Source of the DNA: Phaeobacter italicus
GTDB lineage: Bacteria; Pseudomonadota; Alphaproteobacteria; Rhodobacterales; Rhodobacteraceae
NCBI RefSeq assembly: GCF_001258055.1
Contig: NZ_CVRM01000011.1
Coordinates: 124,001-188,000, forward strand
Direction: 5' to 3'
Length of the DNA: 64,000 nucleotides
Shown: positions 6,549 to 63,482 of the stretch, in pieces
Numbering within the stretch: position 1 is the stretch's first letter
Layout of the letters: each line of letters opens with the position of its first letter
Program-made: the position numbers and the translations under genes
The notes under the pieces: generated by a model
Told to the model about the DNA's origin: nothing
Databases searched by the model: none
Seen by the model: only the letters and a program-made list of their open reading frames with translations

Positions 6549-7613
6549 TCAGGCTGCATCCAGGACAGGGTGTTGGTTTTTGGCGAGCCGTTGAATCAGC
6601 CGCTTCTGGCGGGCTGTCTCCGGTATCGGGCGGGCAGATGCGGCCGCGGTTCCGGTGCGGTGCACAAGATGGGGAAAGAGCGCTTGCAGCTCTTCCTGTG
6701 CGGCTGGGGTAAGCGCAGCAAAAGACCGCTCAGTCACCAAAAGGCTTTCACTTGGGGCGCCGTTGGCCCGGACAATTTCATGATTGTCGAACAACATGTG
6801 AAAGTAGCTGACGGGCTCTGTGCCCTCGCTGATTTCGATGCCGGGCAGGTCAGTCAGCCTTATGGCTGGCAGCAGGATTTCCTGGCTGCCAAACATGCGC
6901 CCTGCCACGCGAGAGCGCACCAGCATCCGGTGTTGCCGTGAAACCTCCAGCGGCTGTGTCGGAAGACCCGCGCCCAATGCACCGGTGTCGATGCGCACCG
7001 GCTTCAGTTTGGCGTTGCGTGTCATTTCGTCGGGCCGAACAACCCGCCGCCCGATCCAGCGCAGCGGCTTTGCACCGGTTTCGGTGAGGATGATGTCACC
7101 GGCTTGCAGGGTTTCGATCGCGCGAGGCCCGTCTGGCGTTCCAATCATCGTGCCACCGCAAAAGCACACAATCAGGGAGATGTTGTCGACAATCGCGCCG
7201 AGACTGTTGTCTTTGCCCAGCTCTGTCAGGCGGAGGGTGTAGTCGCCCGCGCTGTCAAAGGTCACGTCGAGGCTGACCTGGGTAAAGCTGTTGGTGGTTG
7301 GAAGGACTGTCATGGAGGCGATGACAGTGCCGTCAGATGCCAGAACCTCAACGGCAAAACCTTCGGTTCCGGCCTGATTGAGCGACGCATTGCGCAGTGC
7401 TGCATCCAGGGTGACCGCCGTTTGGATCGGGCCATCAACGCGGAACGTCTGCTGCATCACCGTGGTCTGATTGGCACGACCGTCCATTTCGGCCACCCGG
7501 TTGGAGGAGCCGTTGTTGAGATAGGCACCCTCGCTATAGCTCGTCTCAAGGTCATTTCCGGTCCAATAGGCCGAGCCGGAATCAAAGGTGCCGTTGATGA
7601 TCAGATTACGCAT
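6549..7613 (-). CDS. Hint-domain protein with N-terminal jelly-roll-like domain (Hint copy 1)
   Basis: About 354 residues. The N-terminal part (3-148, starting NLIINGTFDSG) has the look of a DUF642/carbohydrate-binding beta-sandwich. The C-terminal part is a Hedgehog/intein (Hint) domain: nucleophile Cys152 in CFCGGTMIGT, R-A-I-E-x-L-Q-A-G-D, His228 in SRQHRMLV, and the conserved Y-F-H-M-L-F-D-N-H segment. Such domains can cleave at the Cys, here possibly releasing the N-terminal domain. No C-extein or signal peptide is seen, suggesting non-classical export. A GTG at 7652 is an alternative start adding 13 residues. It is an isolated gene. Confidence 0.82.
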   Translation of the reverse strand: MRNLIINGTFDSGSAYWTGNDLETSYSEGAYLNNGSSNRVAEMDGRANQTTVMQQTFRVDGPIQTAVTLDAALRNASLNQAGTEGFAVEVLASDGTVIASMTVLPTTNSFTQVSLDVTFDSAGDYTLRLTELGKDNSLGAIVDNISLIVCFCGGTMIGTPDGPRAIETLQAGDIILTETGAKPLRWIGRRVVRPDEMTRNAKLKPVRIDTGALGAGLPTQPLEVSRQHRMLVRSRVAGRMFGSQEILLPAIRLTDLPGIEISEGTEPVSYFHMLFDNHEIVRANGAPSESLLVTERSFAALTPAAQEELQALFPHLVHRTGTAAASARPIPETARQKRLIQRLAKNQHPVLDAA

Positions 7614-43948: not shown

Positions 43949-44248
43949 GTGCGCGCGTATATCAGGAATGCAGGCCGAGGCAAGAAAAACAGGGGCGGAG
44001 AGGCGTATAGACAGGCTCACCCATCGCGTGTTCTGACGTAAGGTAATGTAAATTTCTGAGTGTCCGCTGTCAGTTGGCCAGACAGTTCCCTGATTGGCGA
44101 CAATCTCGCGGGATTGTTTTTACGTGTTTTGTTTAAATTTGGCGAAAATTGGGCGAAACTTGGGTCAAGTTGCCGAATTTCAGATTTCCGACGGCCGCTA
44201 GCCTTGTCCGATTTGGCGGGCAAGCTTGGCCATTTGTGGGGGAGCTCC
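43949..44248. other. 300-base intergenic region with phased TTGG repeats
   Basis: Divergent region between prfC and the acidic-protein gene. It holds a small hairpin with T-run (44100-44121, ACAATC/GATTGT) and four TTGG-type units at 44139, 44149, 44160 and 44170. No ORF with coding character is seen. Confidence 0.5.
44139..44177 (+). repeat. Four helically phased TTGG(N)C-type direct repeats
   Basis: Units starting at 44139, 44149, 44160 and 44170 read TTGGCGAA, TTGGGCGAA, TTGGGTCAA and TTGCCGAA. Their spacing of 10, 11 and 10 bases puts them on one face of the helix, 70-110 bases before the acidic-protein start. This suggests a regulator-binding array. Confidence 0.45.
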
Positions 44249-45866: not shown

Positions 45867-46898
45867 TCAGCGCATCAGGGCGCGGCGCAGTTGGGATGGC
45901 AGTTGGGATGTCTGCGCAGAACGTTCGACCGCCACAGGCTGGATATCCAGCCCCGATGCAACCCGCTGGTGCCCCATCAACAATCCGGGGCTGTGGGCCA
46001 TATGGTCGTCGGGCAGGGCCGCGCGGGTCAAAGGGTCCAGCAGCAGGCTCTCTGCGGCAATCCCTTCGGCAAAGATGATGTGATGGCGATCAAACAGGAG
46101 TTGGAAATAATCCACGAAACCACCGCTCTGCACGGTGACGTCGCCACCGTTCACCAGATCTCTGGCACGGACGAGATGATCGGCGCGGCCAAGGCGGTGC
46201 AGATCCCGGCGGTTATGAACCAAAAGGCGGTGGTCGGGGCTCAGCAACAGGTCCCGCTCATTTCCATGGACACCGGCCCGGATCAGGACAGGGGCCAGAT
46301 CTCCGATGGCGCGCGTCGTGGTTTGACCAATCCAGCGCACCCGCTGTGCGCCATCATCTCGGGTCAGGACACGATCGCCAACCTGCAGCTTTTCAATTGG
46401 ACGCAGTGTCCCATTTGCGAGGGTGATTTGGGTGCCGCGGGTAAAGGAAACACAGGCCAGCTGCGCCAGTCGCCGTCGGGCCCCATCACGGGTTTTACGA
46501 ACGAGTGTATAGCCCAGTTGCGGCTCAAGCGGGGCAAGGGGCAGCAGATAAACGGCTGCGATCATGCCCGCGTTGTCCACCTCAACCATAACGATGCCGT
46601 CCACATTTGCGCCAACGTCGGGCATGAGGGTGATCAGGCAATCCAGATGGAGATGCGCACCAGCAGATCCTGTATCACTGTTCCCGGCAATCAGCAGCTG
46701 CCCGTCGGCGCGCGCGGTCAATCGCAGTTCCTTGGGCCGCTGACCGGAGGCCAGCTGATACACGTCATCCAACGCCAGATCGTCGATCACTCCGATCGGA
46801 TCCCCGGTGTTGGCGCCCATTTCCACGCAAAATGACGTTGCAGGAAATACTGCAACGGTCTGAGTGATCTGGGCTGCGTTCTGCAACGGTGTCAGCAT
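45867..46898 (-). CDS. Hint-domain protein (Hint copy 2)
   Basis: 343 residues. N-terminal region (1-145) is a beta-rich domain of unknown type. The Hint domain follows, with Cys149 in ACVSFTRGTQITL, LRPIEKLQVGDRVLT, His223 in SPDHRLLV, and the late YFQLLFDRHHIIFAEG motif. It differs from copy 1 in having only one Cys at the start of the domain. No signal peptide. Start is ATG 46898 (a TTG precedes it). Divergent from the SDR at 47158. Confidence 0.82.
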   Translation of the reverse strand: MLTPLQNAAQITQTVAVFPATSFCVEMGANTGDPIGVIDDLALDDVYQLASGQRPKELRLTARADGQLLIAGNSDTGSAGAHLHLDCLITLMPDVGANVDGIVMVEVDNAGMIAAVYLLPLAPLEPQLGYTLVRKTRDGARRRLAQLACVSFTRGTQITLANGTLRPIEKLQVGDRVLTRDDGAQRVRWIGQTTTRAIGDLAPVLIRAGVHGNERDLLLSPDHRLLVHNRRDLHRLGRADHLVRARDLVNGGDVTVQSGGFVDYFQLLFDRHHIIFAEGIAAESLLLDPLTRAALPDDHMAHSPGLLMGHQRVASGLDIQPVAVERSAQTSQLPSQLRRALMR

Positions 46899-60035: not shown

Positions 60036-61502
60036 TTACTCTGCCGGGCGCTTCATTTCAAACCCCCGTTCCATCATATCGGATGGAACGACGGGATATT
60101 CGCCAGAGAAACAGGCGTCGCAGTACTGCGGACAGCTGTTGTTGCGGCCCTGATCCTGACCAACCGCGTGATAAAGCCCGTCAAGCGAGATGAACTTCAG
60201 ACTGTCCACTGCGAGGTGTTTTGCCATCTCGTCCTCGGTCATGGTGGCGGCCAACAGCTTGTCCCGGTCGGGCGTGTCCACGCCATAAAAACAGGGCCAT
60301 GCTGTCGGCGGAGACGCAATCCGGAAGTGCACTTCGCTCGCGCCTGCATCCAGGATCATCTCCTTGATTTTGCGCGAGGTTGTCCCGCGCACAACAGAGT
60401 CGTCCACCAGGATCACCCGCTTGCCTTCGATCAGGGCGCGGTTCACGTTCAGCTTCAGACGCACACCCATGTTGCGGATCTGCTCTGTTGGCTCGATGAA
60501 GGTGCGGCCCATGTACTGGTTGCGGATGATCCCCATCGCGTAGGGGATGCCCGATTCCAGAGAGTAGCCAATCGCAGCAGGCGTGCCGCTGTCCGGCACC
60601 GGGCAAACCAGATCGGCTTCGATCGGGTTTTCCTTGGCCAACTCACGGCCGATCGCTTCGCGGGTCTCATAAACAGAACGCCCGCCCAAGATCGAATCAG
60701 GGCGGGAGAAATAAACATGTTCAAAGATGCAGAATTTCGACGGCTGGGGACGGAACGGGAAATGGCTCTGGACCCCTTCGCCGGTGATGACCACCATCTC
60801 GCCAGGTTCGATTTCACGAATGAACTCGGCCCCGATGATGTCCAGCGCACAGGTTTCAGAGCTGAGCGCGTACCCATCGCCAATCTTGCCAAGAACAAGC
60901 GGGCGAACACCAAGTGGGTCACGCACGCCGATCAGCTTGGTCCGGGTCATGGCGACAACAGAGAAAGCCCCTTCAACCCGGCGCAGCGCGTCTTCCATCC
61001 GTTCGGGGATATTGCGCTGCAGGGACCGGGCCATCAGGTGAATGATACATTCACTGTCAGATGAGCTTTGGAAGATGGAGCCACGTTCAATCAGCTCTTT
61101 GCGCAGGGCATCTGCATTCGTGATGTTGCCGTTATGGGCAATGGCTGCGCCACCCATGGCGAATTCGCCAAAGAAGGGCTGCACATCACGGATCGCGGTC
61201 TGGCCCTTGGATCCGGCAGTGGAGTAGCGGACATGACCAATCCCGATCGGGCCGGGCAGGGTAGACATCACATCCTGTGAGGTAAAGTTGTCGCGGACAT
61301 AGCCAAAGCGGCGGGCGCTCTGGAAACCTTCGACGGGGTCGTGTGTGACGATCCCTCCGGCTTCCTGTCCCCGGTGCTGCAGCGCGTGCAGGCCTAGGGC
61401 GACGAAGTTTGCTGCGTCTTGGACGCCGACGACGCCAAAGACGCCACATTCTTCGCGTAGCTTGTCATCATCAAACGGGTGGGCGGGGGGCATCTGCGGC
61501 AT
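60036..61502 (-). CDS. purF: Amidophosphoribosyltransferase
   Basis: First committed enzyme of purine synthesis, making phosphoribosylamine from PRPP and glutamine. It has an N-terminal glutaminase nucleophile Cys in REECGVFG (Cys19 from this start, exposed after propeptide removal) and the PRPP loop VILVDDSVVRGTTS. About 488 residues. ATG 61493 is an alternative; a TTG at 61508 is less likely. PurF follows cvpA and radA, as in many bacteria, but here a Hint-like gene lies between. Confidence 0.95.
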   Translation of the reverse strand: MPQMPPAHPFDDDKLREECGVFGVVGVQDAANFVALGLHALQHRGQEAGGIVTHDPVEGFQSARRFGYVRDNFTSQDVMSTLPGPIGIGHVRYSTAGSKGQTAIRDVQPFFGEFAMGGAAIAHNGNITNADALRKELIERGSIFQSSSDSECIIHLMARSLQRNIPERMEDALRRVEGAFSVVAMTRTKLIGVRDPLGVRPLVLGKIGDGYALSSETCALDIIGAEFIREIEPGEMVVITGEGVQSHFPFRPQPSKFCIFEHVYFSRPDSILGGRSVYETREAIGRELAKENPIEADLVCPVPDSGTPAAIGYSLESGIPYAMGIIRNQYMGRTFIEPTEQIRNMGVRLKLNVNRALIEGKRVILVDDSVVRGTTSRKIKEMILDAGASEVHFRIASPPTAWPCFYGVDTPDRDKLLAATMTEDEMAKHLAVDSLKFISLDGLYHAVGQDQGRNNSCPQYCDACFSGEYPVVPSDMMERGFEMKRPAE

Positions 61503-61661
61503 CGGCAAGGCGGTGTGGCTCCGAATCCGGTTTTGAGGATGCCACCCACATAGAGCCTCAATCGCGCCGTGTCACCAAAGGATCACGCTTTCACGACAGT
61601 TGGGTGAAAAAACCGCATGCTTTCAAGGCATCCGCTTTGCCAGTTGCACCCACCCAGAACG

Positions 61662-61739: not shown

Positions 61740-62438
61740 TTACGCGGCCAGCAGACCCCGCAGCATATCAAAGGCAGACAGGATGTCGTCGCTGTCTTCA
61801 TCGGTGGTTTCGTCTTCGGCCTTGCCTGCGTCGACCAGCGCACGGCCTTCTTCGCTTGCGAGGATCTGACGGGTTTCGCTCAGCGACAGGTCGCGGAATG
61901 CGCTGTCGTCCGCGCTGTCCGCCGCCGGGATGTGGACCAACATGCCACATTCGGCCCAGATCATCTCTTCTTCTGCAAAGGTGATGAAGATGCGCGCCAT
62001 CTTTTCGGGCATCGCTGCGGTAATACCGTTGTAACCAACCAGAGAGATAACCTTGGTCACGGCTGTCGGTACGTCAAAAAGGCGCTCGATTGCGTCCAGT
62101 TCCAGACCAACCTTCTGATCCGCAGGAAGCATGAGATCGTCGTCATTGCCCAGAGCGCCGGCAGGCACATGCACAAGAGAGGTCAGGCGGGGGATGGATT
62201 GCTTCACACTCAGCACTTCCTGTGCGCCACCATCGAGGGTGTAGACCATGTCGCCGGGCTTGATGTGGCGTGCCTGAACAAACCCACGGTCGGTCTCAAC
62301 CATCATGTGCGGCAACAGGCCACCGGTGCGGGGACGCGGACGGCTGCGGGGTGCAGGCGCTGCAACGGCTGCCGGAAAATCCATCAGCAGACCAACGGGC
62401 TGACAGTCGGCGAAAGATGTCGAGTGATCCAGCAGCAT
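61740..62438 (-). CDS. Hint-like protein lacking catalytic residues (Hint copy 3)
   Basis: 232 residues. The middle region aligns with Hint domains of copies 1 and 2: RGFVQARHIKPGDMVYTLDGGAQEVLSV, then LGNDDDLMLPADQKVGL and AEEEMIWAECGMLVHIP. Where others have Cys the sequence is GGLLPHMMVETD, and where they have His it is PADQK, so autocleavage is not expected. Acidic tail with DETTDEDSDDIL. Start ATG has AAGGA 8 bases upstream. It separates cvpA from purF and has its own terminator. Confidence 0.75.
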   Translation of the reverse strand: MLLDHSTSFADCQPVGLLMDFPAAVAAPAPRSRPRPRTGGLLPHMMVETDRGFVQARHIKPGDMVYTLDGGAQEVLSVKQSIPRLTSLVHVPAGALGNDDDLMLPADQKVGLELDAIERLFDVPTAVTKVISLVGYNGITAAMPEKMARIFITFAEEEMIWAECGMLVHIPAADSADDSAFRDLSLSETRQILASEEGRALVDAGKAEDETTDEDSDDILSAFDMLRGLLAA

Positions 62439-62498: not shown

Positions 62499-62590
62499 TT
62501 GGGACGGAAATGGGGCAAGCTTTGGGCCGATTGGGACAAGACCGGGGTTTTCGCCCCGAAATCGCGCCTCATTTACGAAATTGGGGCAAA
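62499..62590 (-). repeat. Phased TTGGG-type repeats upstream of Hint copy 3
   Basis: Units starting at 62499, 62510, 62522, 62531 and 62581 (TTGGGACGG, ATGGGGCAA, TTGGGCCGA, TTGGGACAA, TTGGGGCAA on the plus strand), spaced 11, 12, 9 and 50 bases. They lie 61-150 bases before the Hint copy 3 start and resemble the array before the acidic-protein gene. Confidence 0.4.
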
Positions 62591-62696
62591 AAACACGCCG
62601 CAATCTCAAGATTTGTTAACTTTTATGCGTCTGCGAGCCCGATGATGAGGGAGCGTAGGCACCCTAAGGCGCTCGGAATCTGGTGATTCCTGTTGG

Positions 62697-62711
62697 TTAA
62701 TAAAGCGTTAA
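62697..62711. promoter_or_regulatory. TTAA-N7-TTAA, candidate CtrA-binding site
   Basis: Exact match to the bipartite core recognised by the alphaproteobacterial cell-cycle/motility regulator CtrA. It is 259 bases before the Hint copy 3 start and 217 bases from the cvpA stop. A further TTAA occurs at about 62617. Confidence 0.4.
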
Positions 62712-62927: not shown

Positions 62928-63482
62928 TTACTGGTTGCAGGCGCCAATCAGGGTTTCATATTGCGCGGTGACCCAGCCCAGGGCTTCTTCGGGGTTGCGC
63001 TCTTCGATCTTGCCGATCATGCGCTCGAATACCACTGCAGAGCGGCTCTCATCCACGATGGTAAAGCTCTGACCCGTCATCACGACATTATAAAGGAAGA
63101 AGGCAATCGCCACCAACAGGATGCCGCGCAGAACCCCAAAGAAGAAGCCTGCGCCCTGATCCAGCCCGCCAAGGGCCGAACGCTGGACGAGAGAAGAGAA
63201 AAGTGGCGTAAAGAACGACACCACAATCAACGCCAGGGCAAATACCGCCGCAAAGGCCGCGATGATCGACAATTCGCAGCTGTCTGCGATGAATTCGCCG
63301 ATGACCGGGATCTCTGCCATCAGGGGTTCGACCTGTGGTGCAAACAAAAAGGCCAGAATAGCGGCTGCAATCCAACCGGCGATTGCCATTGCTTCACGCA
63401 CCAGCCCGCGCGAATAGGCCAGCAGTGCCGATACAACAATGACCAGGGCCACAACCCCGTCGATAATGGTGAAACCTTCCAT
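62928..63482 (-). CDS. cvpA: CvpA family membrane protein
   Basis: 184 residues, four predicted helices, starting MEGFTIIDGVVALVIVVSALLAYSRGLVREAM, the family N-terminus. Despite the colicin V name, chromosomal CvpA proteins act in envelope integrity. Between radA and purF-linked genes as usual. Confidence 0.88.
   Translation of the reverse strand: MEGFTIIDGVVALVIVVSALLAYSRGLVREAMAIAGWIAAAILAFLFAPQVEPLMAEIPVIGEFIADSCELSIIAAFAAVFALALIVVSFFTPLFSSLVQRSALGGLDQGAGFFFGVLRGILLVAIAFFLYNVVMTGQSFTIVDESRSAVVFERMIGKIEERNPEEALGWVTAQYETLIGACNQ

Follow-up and report, generated by a model that had tools for sequence, protein, structure and literature searches.

The window analysed here, a stretch of 64,000 nucleotides of the Phaeobacter italicus genome, carries three open reading frames with a Hint_2 domain, which lie on the minus strand at the places given by the initial annotation:

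6549..7613, minus strand: copy 1, an uncharacterised N-terminal region followed by Hint_2; Cys150 at nt 7164-7166, His228 at nt 6930-6932
45867..46898, minus strand: copy 2, an uncharacterised N-terminal region followed by Hint_2; Cys149, Ser151 (nucleophile column) at nt 46446-46448, His223 at nt 46230-46232
61740..62438, minus strand: copy 3, a 232-residue stand-alone dead Hint protein; Gly40 (Cys column) at nt 62319-62321, Gln108 (His column) at nt 62115-62117

The Pfam Hint_2 profile scores copy 1 at 164.6 bits, copy 2 at 137.6 bits and copy 3 at 40.1 bits against a cut-off of 28.4, which bears out the earlier proposal that copy 3 is a Hint relative. The whole genome holds 12 Hint_2 matches, and the three genes within 64 kb are part of this larger genomic set.

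We aligned the three proteins to active Hint_2 domains. The earlier assignment of His228 in copy 1 was correct (SxxH column), but the nucleophile column is occupied by Cys150 and not by Cys152, which is the second Cys of a CFC motif. Likewise, His223 of copy 2 stands, but its nucleophile column holds Ser151, two residues after the Cys149 that had been taken as catalytic. For copy 3 the described loss and the replacement of His by Gln (Gln108) were recovered, but the Cys position is held by Gly40 rather than by Leu/Pro; neither a Cys nor a His is kept at the equivalent sites. Are the three copies then stages of a stepwise loss, as had been suggested? We found instead that the three copies represent distinct lines of paralogues, and that every one of these lines has orthologues in the genus; copies 1 and 2 group with the active Hints in the tree and copy 3 stands apart. 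Copy 2 seems to represent a Ser-type line rather than a step of decay: in an alignment of 12 copy-2-type rows (the window, four of the genus and seven of other genera, L290-L300 beside the window), the nucleophile column holds Ser in 11/12 and Ala in L295. As in inteins, Ser could still support an acyl shift. The copy-2-type protein of L295 (835-1839) has Ala and Asn replacing Ser and His, a separate loss.

Orthologues of copy 3 occur in 7/7 genomes of the genus, with 71-76% identity outside its own genome, and relatives were found in named records at 13 Rhodobacteraceae/Rhodobacterales loci, titled Phaeobacter, Roseobacter, Zongyanglinia, Parasedimentitalea, Pseudophaeobacter, Tropicibacter or unclassified; one of these, L067, and a locus of one genus member represent a single gene. 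A profile built from 32 relatives of copy 3 (A1), whose membership is thus selected by similarity, matches 76/197 family genomes at E <= 1e-28; 72 of these matches were checked by sequence, and of the other four (G045, G094, G100 and G147) two, G045 and G147, match weakly and within long frames, which might represent Hints of the active side. Against 240 class-wide genomes the same profile gave three matches at E <= 1e-10, all in its own family and including its own genome. All 32 members match Hint_2 at E <= 0.001, and a profile-profile comparison of dead and active domains gave a probability of 99.6 over 157 columns. Among PDB profile matches, 11/13 come from inteins or from a bacterial intein-like domain, the best being 2lwy (E 0.0021) and the remainder lying at E 0.035 to 0.95. 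The AlphaFold model of copy 3 is poor (pLDDT 48.7), and the assignment to the Hint fold, a beta horseshoe, rests on these profiles.

The catalytic columns differ sharply between the two groups. Among 106 distinct dead domains, a set that includes close orthologues, the Cys column contains no Cys but 96 Gly, 1 Ser and 2 Thr, and the His column (block-B S/TxxH) contains no His but 101 Gln; active-side domains have Cys in 16/18 and His in 17/18. Dead and active profiles score more than 50 bits apart for all 124 distinct domains but one, L030 (53-1261), a 403-residue, otherwise active-type Hint of a genus member with the same Gly/Gln pair as the dead clade. In a first tree of 58 rows a single branch splits off the 42 dead rows with support 100/100, the bootstrap being unsettled; in a second (FastTree, 140 rows, Cys and His columns removed, few columns) all 106 dead rows fall on one side with an SH-like support of 99. 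Judged by these sequence comparisons, copy 3 is a member of a single clade of Rhodobacteraceae Hint proteins that stand alone and are vertically inherited.

Within the genus, mean dN/dS was 0.113 for copy 3 (7 genomes, 21 pairs), 0.108 for copy 2 (5 genomes) and 0.164 for copy 1 (6 genomes), in comparisons with dS near 1.1. Copy 3 is under purifying selection, in line with the earlier suggestion that the dead member is kept, and its dN/dS largely refutes a reading as a pseudogene. A decaying paralogue at the end of a stepwise series would also have lost its catalytic residues, and two active-side proteins lost theirs too (L030 with Gly/Gln, L295 with Ala/Asn); such decay is nevertheless very improbable in view of the fixed replacements (96 and 101 of 106), the open frames, the low dN/dS and the conserved place and upstream array described below. 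We consider it very likely that the dead Hint clade is kept under selection; the mark of copy 3 is the fixed Gly/Gln replacement together with a shared upstream array, not decay. Could the conserved residues form a new active site? A re-tooled enzyme would be compatible with the Gln in the former His column (101/106) and with Asp or Glu in the former DRHE His column, seen in 93/106 dead domains. However, this conservation may be structural, and we know of no Hint-fold enzyme of this kind; we regard such an enzyme as rather unlikely.

Copy 3 is flanked as follows:

60036..61508, minus strand: downstream neighbour, with GATase and Pribosyltran matches, which we take to be purF
62928..63482, minus strand: cvpA, upstream neighbour, with a Colicin_V match

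A PurF homologue lies downstream in 13/13 named loci and CvpA upstream in 12/13, the exception (L075) being a contig that begins too near; in L068, L071 and L079 other sequence of 1.7 to 3 kb intervenes on one of the two sides. The PurF homologues at this place are of two kinds, with 92-94% identity to that of the window in L067, L076 and L077 and about 37-38% in the other ten of L067-L079. Among the 28 loci L039-L066, six have cvpA and purF, L039 has purF and 21 lie elsewhere. In evenly drawn genomes the dead Hint follows cvpA within about 3 kb in only 2/60, a count in which purF was not found in 8/60 and the stretch was short in four cases. Dead Hints are also common at a second place, where a sulfotransferase-like gene precedes them in the same orientation (38/60 loci) and where a fadB-like gene (43/60, of which 34 with the sulfotransferase) and a thiolase gene (42/60) are convergent. 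An example of the upstream gene, Sulfotransfer_2-like, lies at 4164-4829 of L178 (loci L170-L229).

Upstream of copy 3 we found a direct-repeat array:

62503..62530, minus strand: GCC-N8-GCC-N8-GTC, a candidate response-regulator site

The motif derived from 73 upstream stretches is AaTGCCnCAAtcttGCCncatTtccGgC. The copy 3 site, itself part of this training set, is the best in the window with 23.0 bits, followed by sites of 17.8 and 17.6 bits, and in many clade members the array lies about 90-130 bp upstream. In a test of spacing free of training, GCC-N8-GCC occurred at -140 to -60 in 32/60 and 7/13 loci, compared to Markov expectations with means of 4.15 and 0.68 and maxima of 10 and 4 in 200 runs. 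Other gaps gave 0-11 loci and CCG-N8-CCG gave 12 and 1, while a looser three-unit pattern was present in 37/60 and 12/13 loci vs 0-4 in five other windows. We preferred the 11-bp GCC repeat, backed by the spacing control, to a sigma-54 reading of a GG-N10-GC element. Among 20 rows from upstream of active Hints, L005 with 17.6 bits was the only one to exceed the 99% null quantile of 16.1.

Further matches were found outside the clade. The weaker match of 17.6 bits in the window (44141-44168) precedes a gene that, from its N-terminus, we take to be prfC-like. In the own genome, searches allowing up to two mismatches gave 152 matches vs 96 for the reversed motif with a first pattern and 95 vs 54 with a second, too noisy for naming targets; a crude gene call, which misplaced the copy 3 site, put 27 of the 30 loci read within a called frame. 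Exact matches to the second pattern in the own genome were restricted to copy 3 and one place near leuD. Each genus genome (7/7) has a GCC array once at one place (L308-L314; from position 1501 onward in L311, C22:392024 in the own genome), and G006 has a second match elsewhere. By our presumed gene names, this array lies near a leuD-like gene in L311 and near another gene in others; a short conserved stretch with TTGCATCA follows. The place may be a small-RNA promoter; when six sources were compared with Rfam at gathering scores, nothing matched.

Which regulator could recognise the array? The upstream region of copy 3 fits the Sinorhizobium ChvI site N-GCC-N8-GCC as defined in a passage of PMC9731502, a site that an excerpt of PMC3687685 describes as putative. 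The same passage of PMC9731502 gives a different consensus for Caulobacter ChvI, TTGC-N3-GCAA, and CenR, another OmpR-family regulator, uses repeats of equal spacing (TGA-N8-TGA; excerpt of PMC9275681), so that spacing alone cannot name ChvI. The own genome carries in a row an OmpR-type regulator (Response_reg and Trans_reg_C), a ChvG-like kinase and hprK. The best NCBIfam match of the kinase is ChvG with 383.6 bits, the next reaching 167.2 and the curated ChvG cut-off being 740; no NCBIfam model names the OmpR-type regulator as ChvI, and a GCC array is missing from the promoter of this chvI gene. An OmpR-family response regulator probably switches the transcription of copy 3 by binding the GCC repeats with their 11-bp spacing. 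The most likely candidate is ChvI, of the envelope-stress system ChvG-ChvI, and we hold ChvI-type control to be reasonably probable.

Two further elements lie upstream of the array:

62697..62711, minus strand: TTAA-N7-TTAA box, which we take to be CtrA-like
62685..62689, minus strand: GAATC (GANTC), presumably a CcrM-type site, 22 nt after the start of the TTAA box

In the cvpA-purF group the box occurs in 18/26 rows, or 17/25 distinct genes (L039 and L068 being one gene), at -255 to -285 or, for L048 alone, at -189. The expectation from simple shuffles is 0.1, but the rows of this group are related. A GAATC comes 22 nt later (21 nt in L075) in those 16 distinct genes whose box lies at -255 to -285. 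Outside this group the box is found in only 4/60 loci; GANTC alone is common by chance (53/60 other loci, 47.2 expected). Most of the cvpA-purF subgroup thus has this pair further upstream, and CtrA- and CcrM-type regulators may act on it.

What could a Hint domain do that does not cleave? With the nucleophile and the His gone, the self-cleaving step should be unavailable, and the conserved residues point to binding. Sequences and trees show that the copy 3 clade lost the chemistry of self-cleavage and fixed a Gly/Gln pair instead. We propose that copy 3 would not undergo the acyl shift with which Hint cleavage begins, and that it probably works as a folded binding module. In the weakest step of this proposal, one partner that would fit the data is the set of active Hint_2 proteins in the same cell. 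By binding to the precursor or the junction of these proteins, copy 3 could regulate, chaperone or block their processing in trans. We propose this link because the two co-occur. In 118 genomes, with the own genus left out and kinship ignored by the statistics, other Hint_2 genes were present in 49/49 genomes with a dead Hint, three of which (G045, G094 and G100) were counted without sequence check, vs 54/69 without one (Fisher p 1.6e-4). The median number of other Hint_2 genes was 10 vs 5 (Mann-Whitney p 2.4e-6), and among genomes with at least one other Hint_2 gene the medians shrink to 10 vs 8 (p 0.001).

These counts also bear on a rival reading, in which the dead Hint is a stress or envelope-response protein whose partner is unrelated to the active Hints, e.g. 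a kinase, an enzyme or a peptide. The ChvI-like array upstream of the dead Hints would suit it, as would the neighbourhoods, since dead genes adjoin cvpA-purF or sulfotransferase/fadB-like genes and, as a rule, no Hint genes. However, among the sampled genomes the dead Hint is seen only where other Hint_2 genes are present and correlates with their number, kinship being ignored; we give an unrelated partner a nearly even chance. As for our own proposal, action of copy 3 on active Hints is, taken by itself, a tentative and rather doubtful step. Taken as a whole, an explanation as a non-cleaving binding protein under envelope-type (ChvI) control with active Hints as partner is the one towards which we lean, if slightly. 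The most specific version, a pseudo-Hint family made on envelope stress via ChvG-ChvI that controls the self-processing of active Hints in trans, seems unlikely.

Hint domains are known for self-cleavage, and the dead clade would represent a pseudo-enzyme class for this fold. It is matched in more than one third of the sampled Rhodobacteraceae genomes, often with a common upstream array, and would offer an entry point to the roles of the many uncharacterised Hint_2 proteins in this family. Among the papers listed by our literature searches on Hint domains, none showed a dead bacterial Hint family; PF13403 was absent among the literature matches listed, which mostly concerned the unrelated HINT2, and is named in a passage of PMC12487129.

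In summary, copy 3 falls into the family Pfam PF13403 (Hint_2) by profile, as do 32/32 A1 members, while the dead clade lacks the Cys, the His and the N-terminal partner domain and has mostly LxHCP-like residues where active Hint_2 domains have ESFxP. Bacterial intein-like domains and inteins are close by profile, the best PDB match 2lwy being a bacterial intein-like domain, but copy 3 has no nucleophile, block-B His or exteins; it stands alone, a 39-residue leader precedes the domain and the domain starts with Gly, and it thus does not qualify as an intein. The C-terminal Hint of Hedgehog belongs to the same domain class and keeps its catalytic residues, transferring a sterol. If the most specific version of our proposal holds, pseudo-Hint proteins would be the Hint counterpart of pseudokinases.
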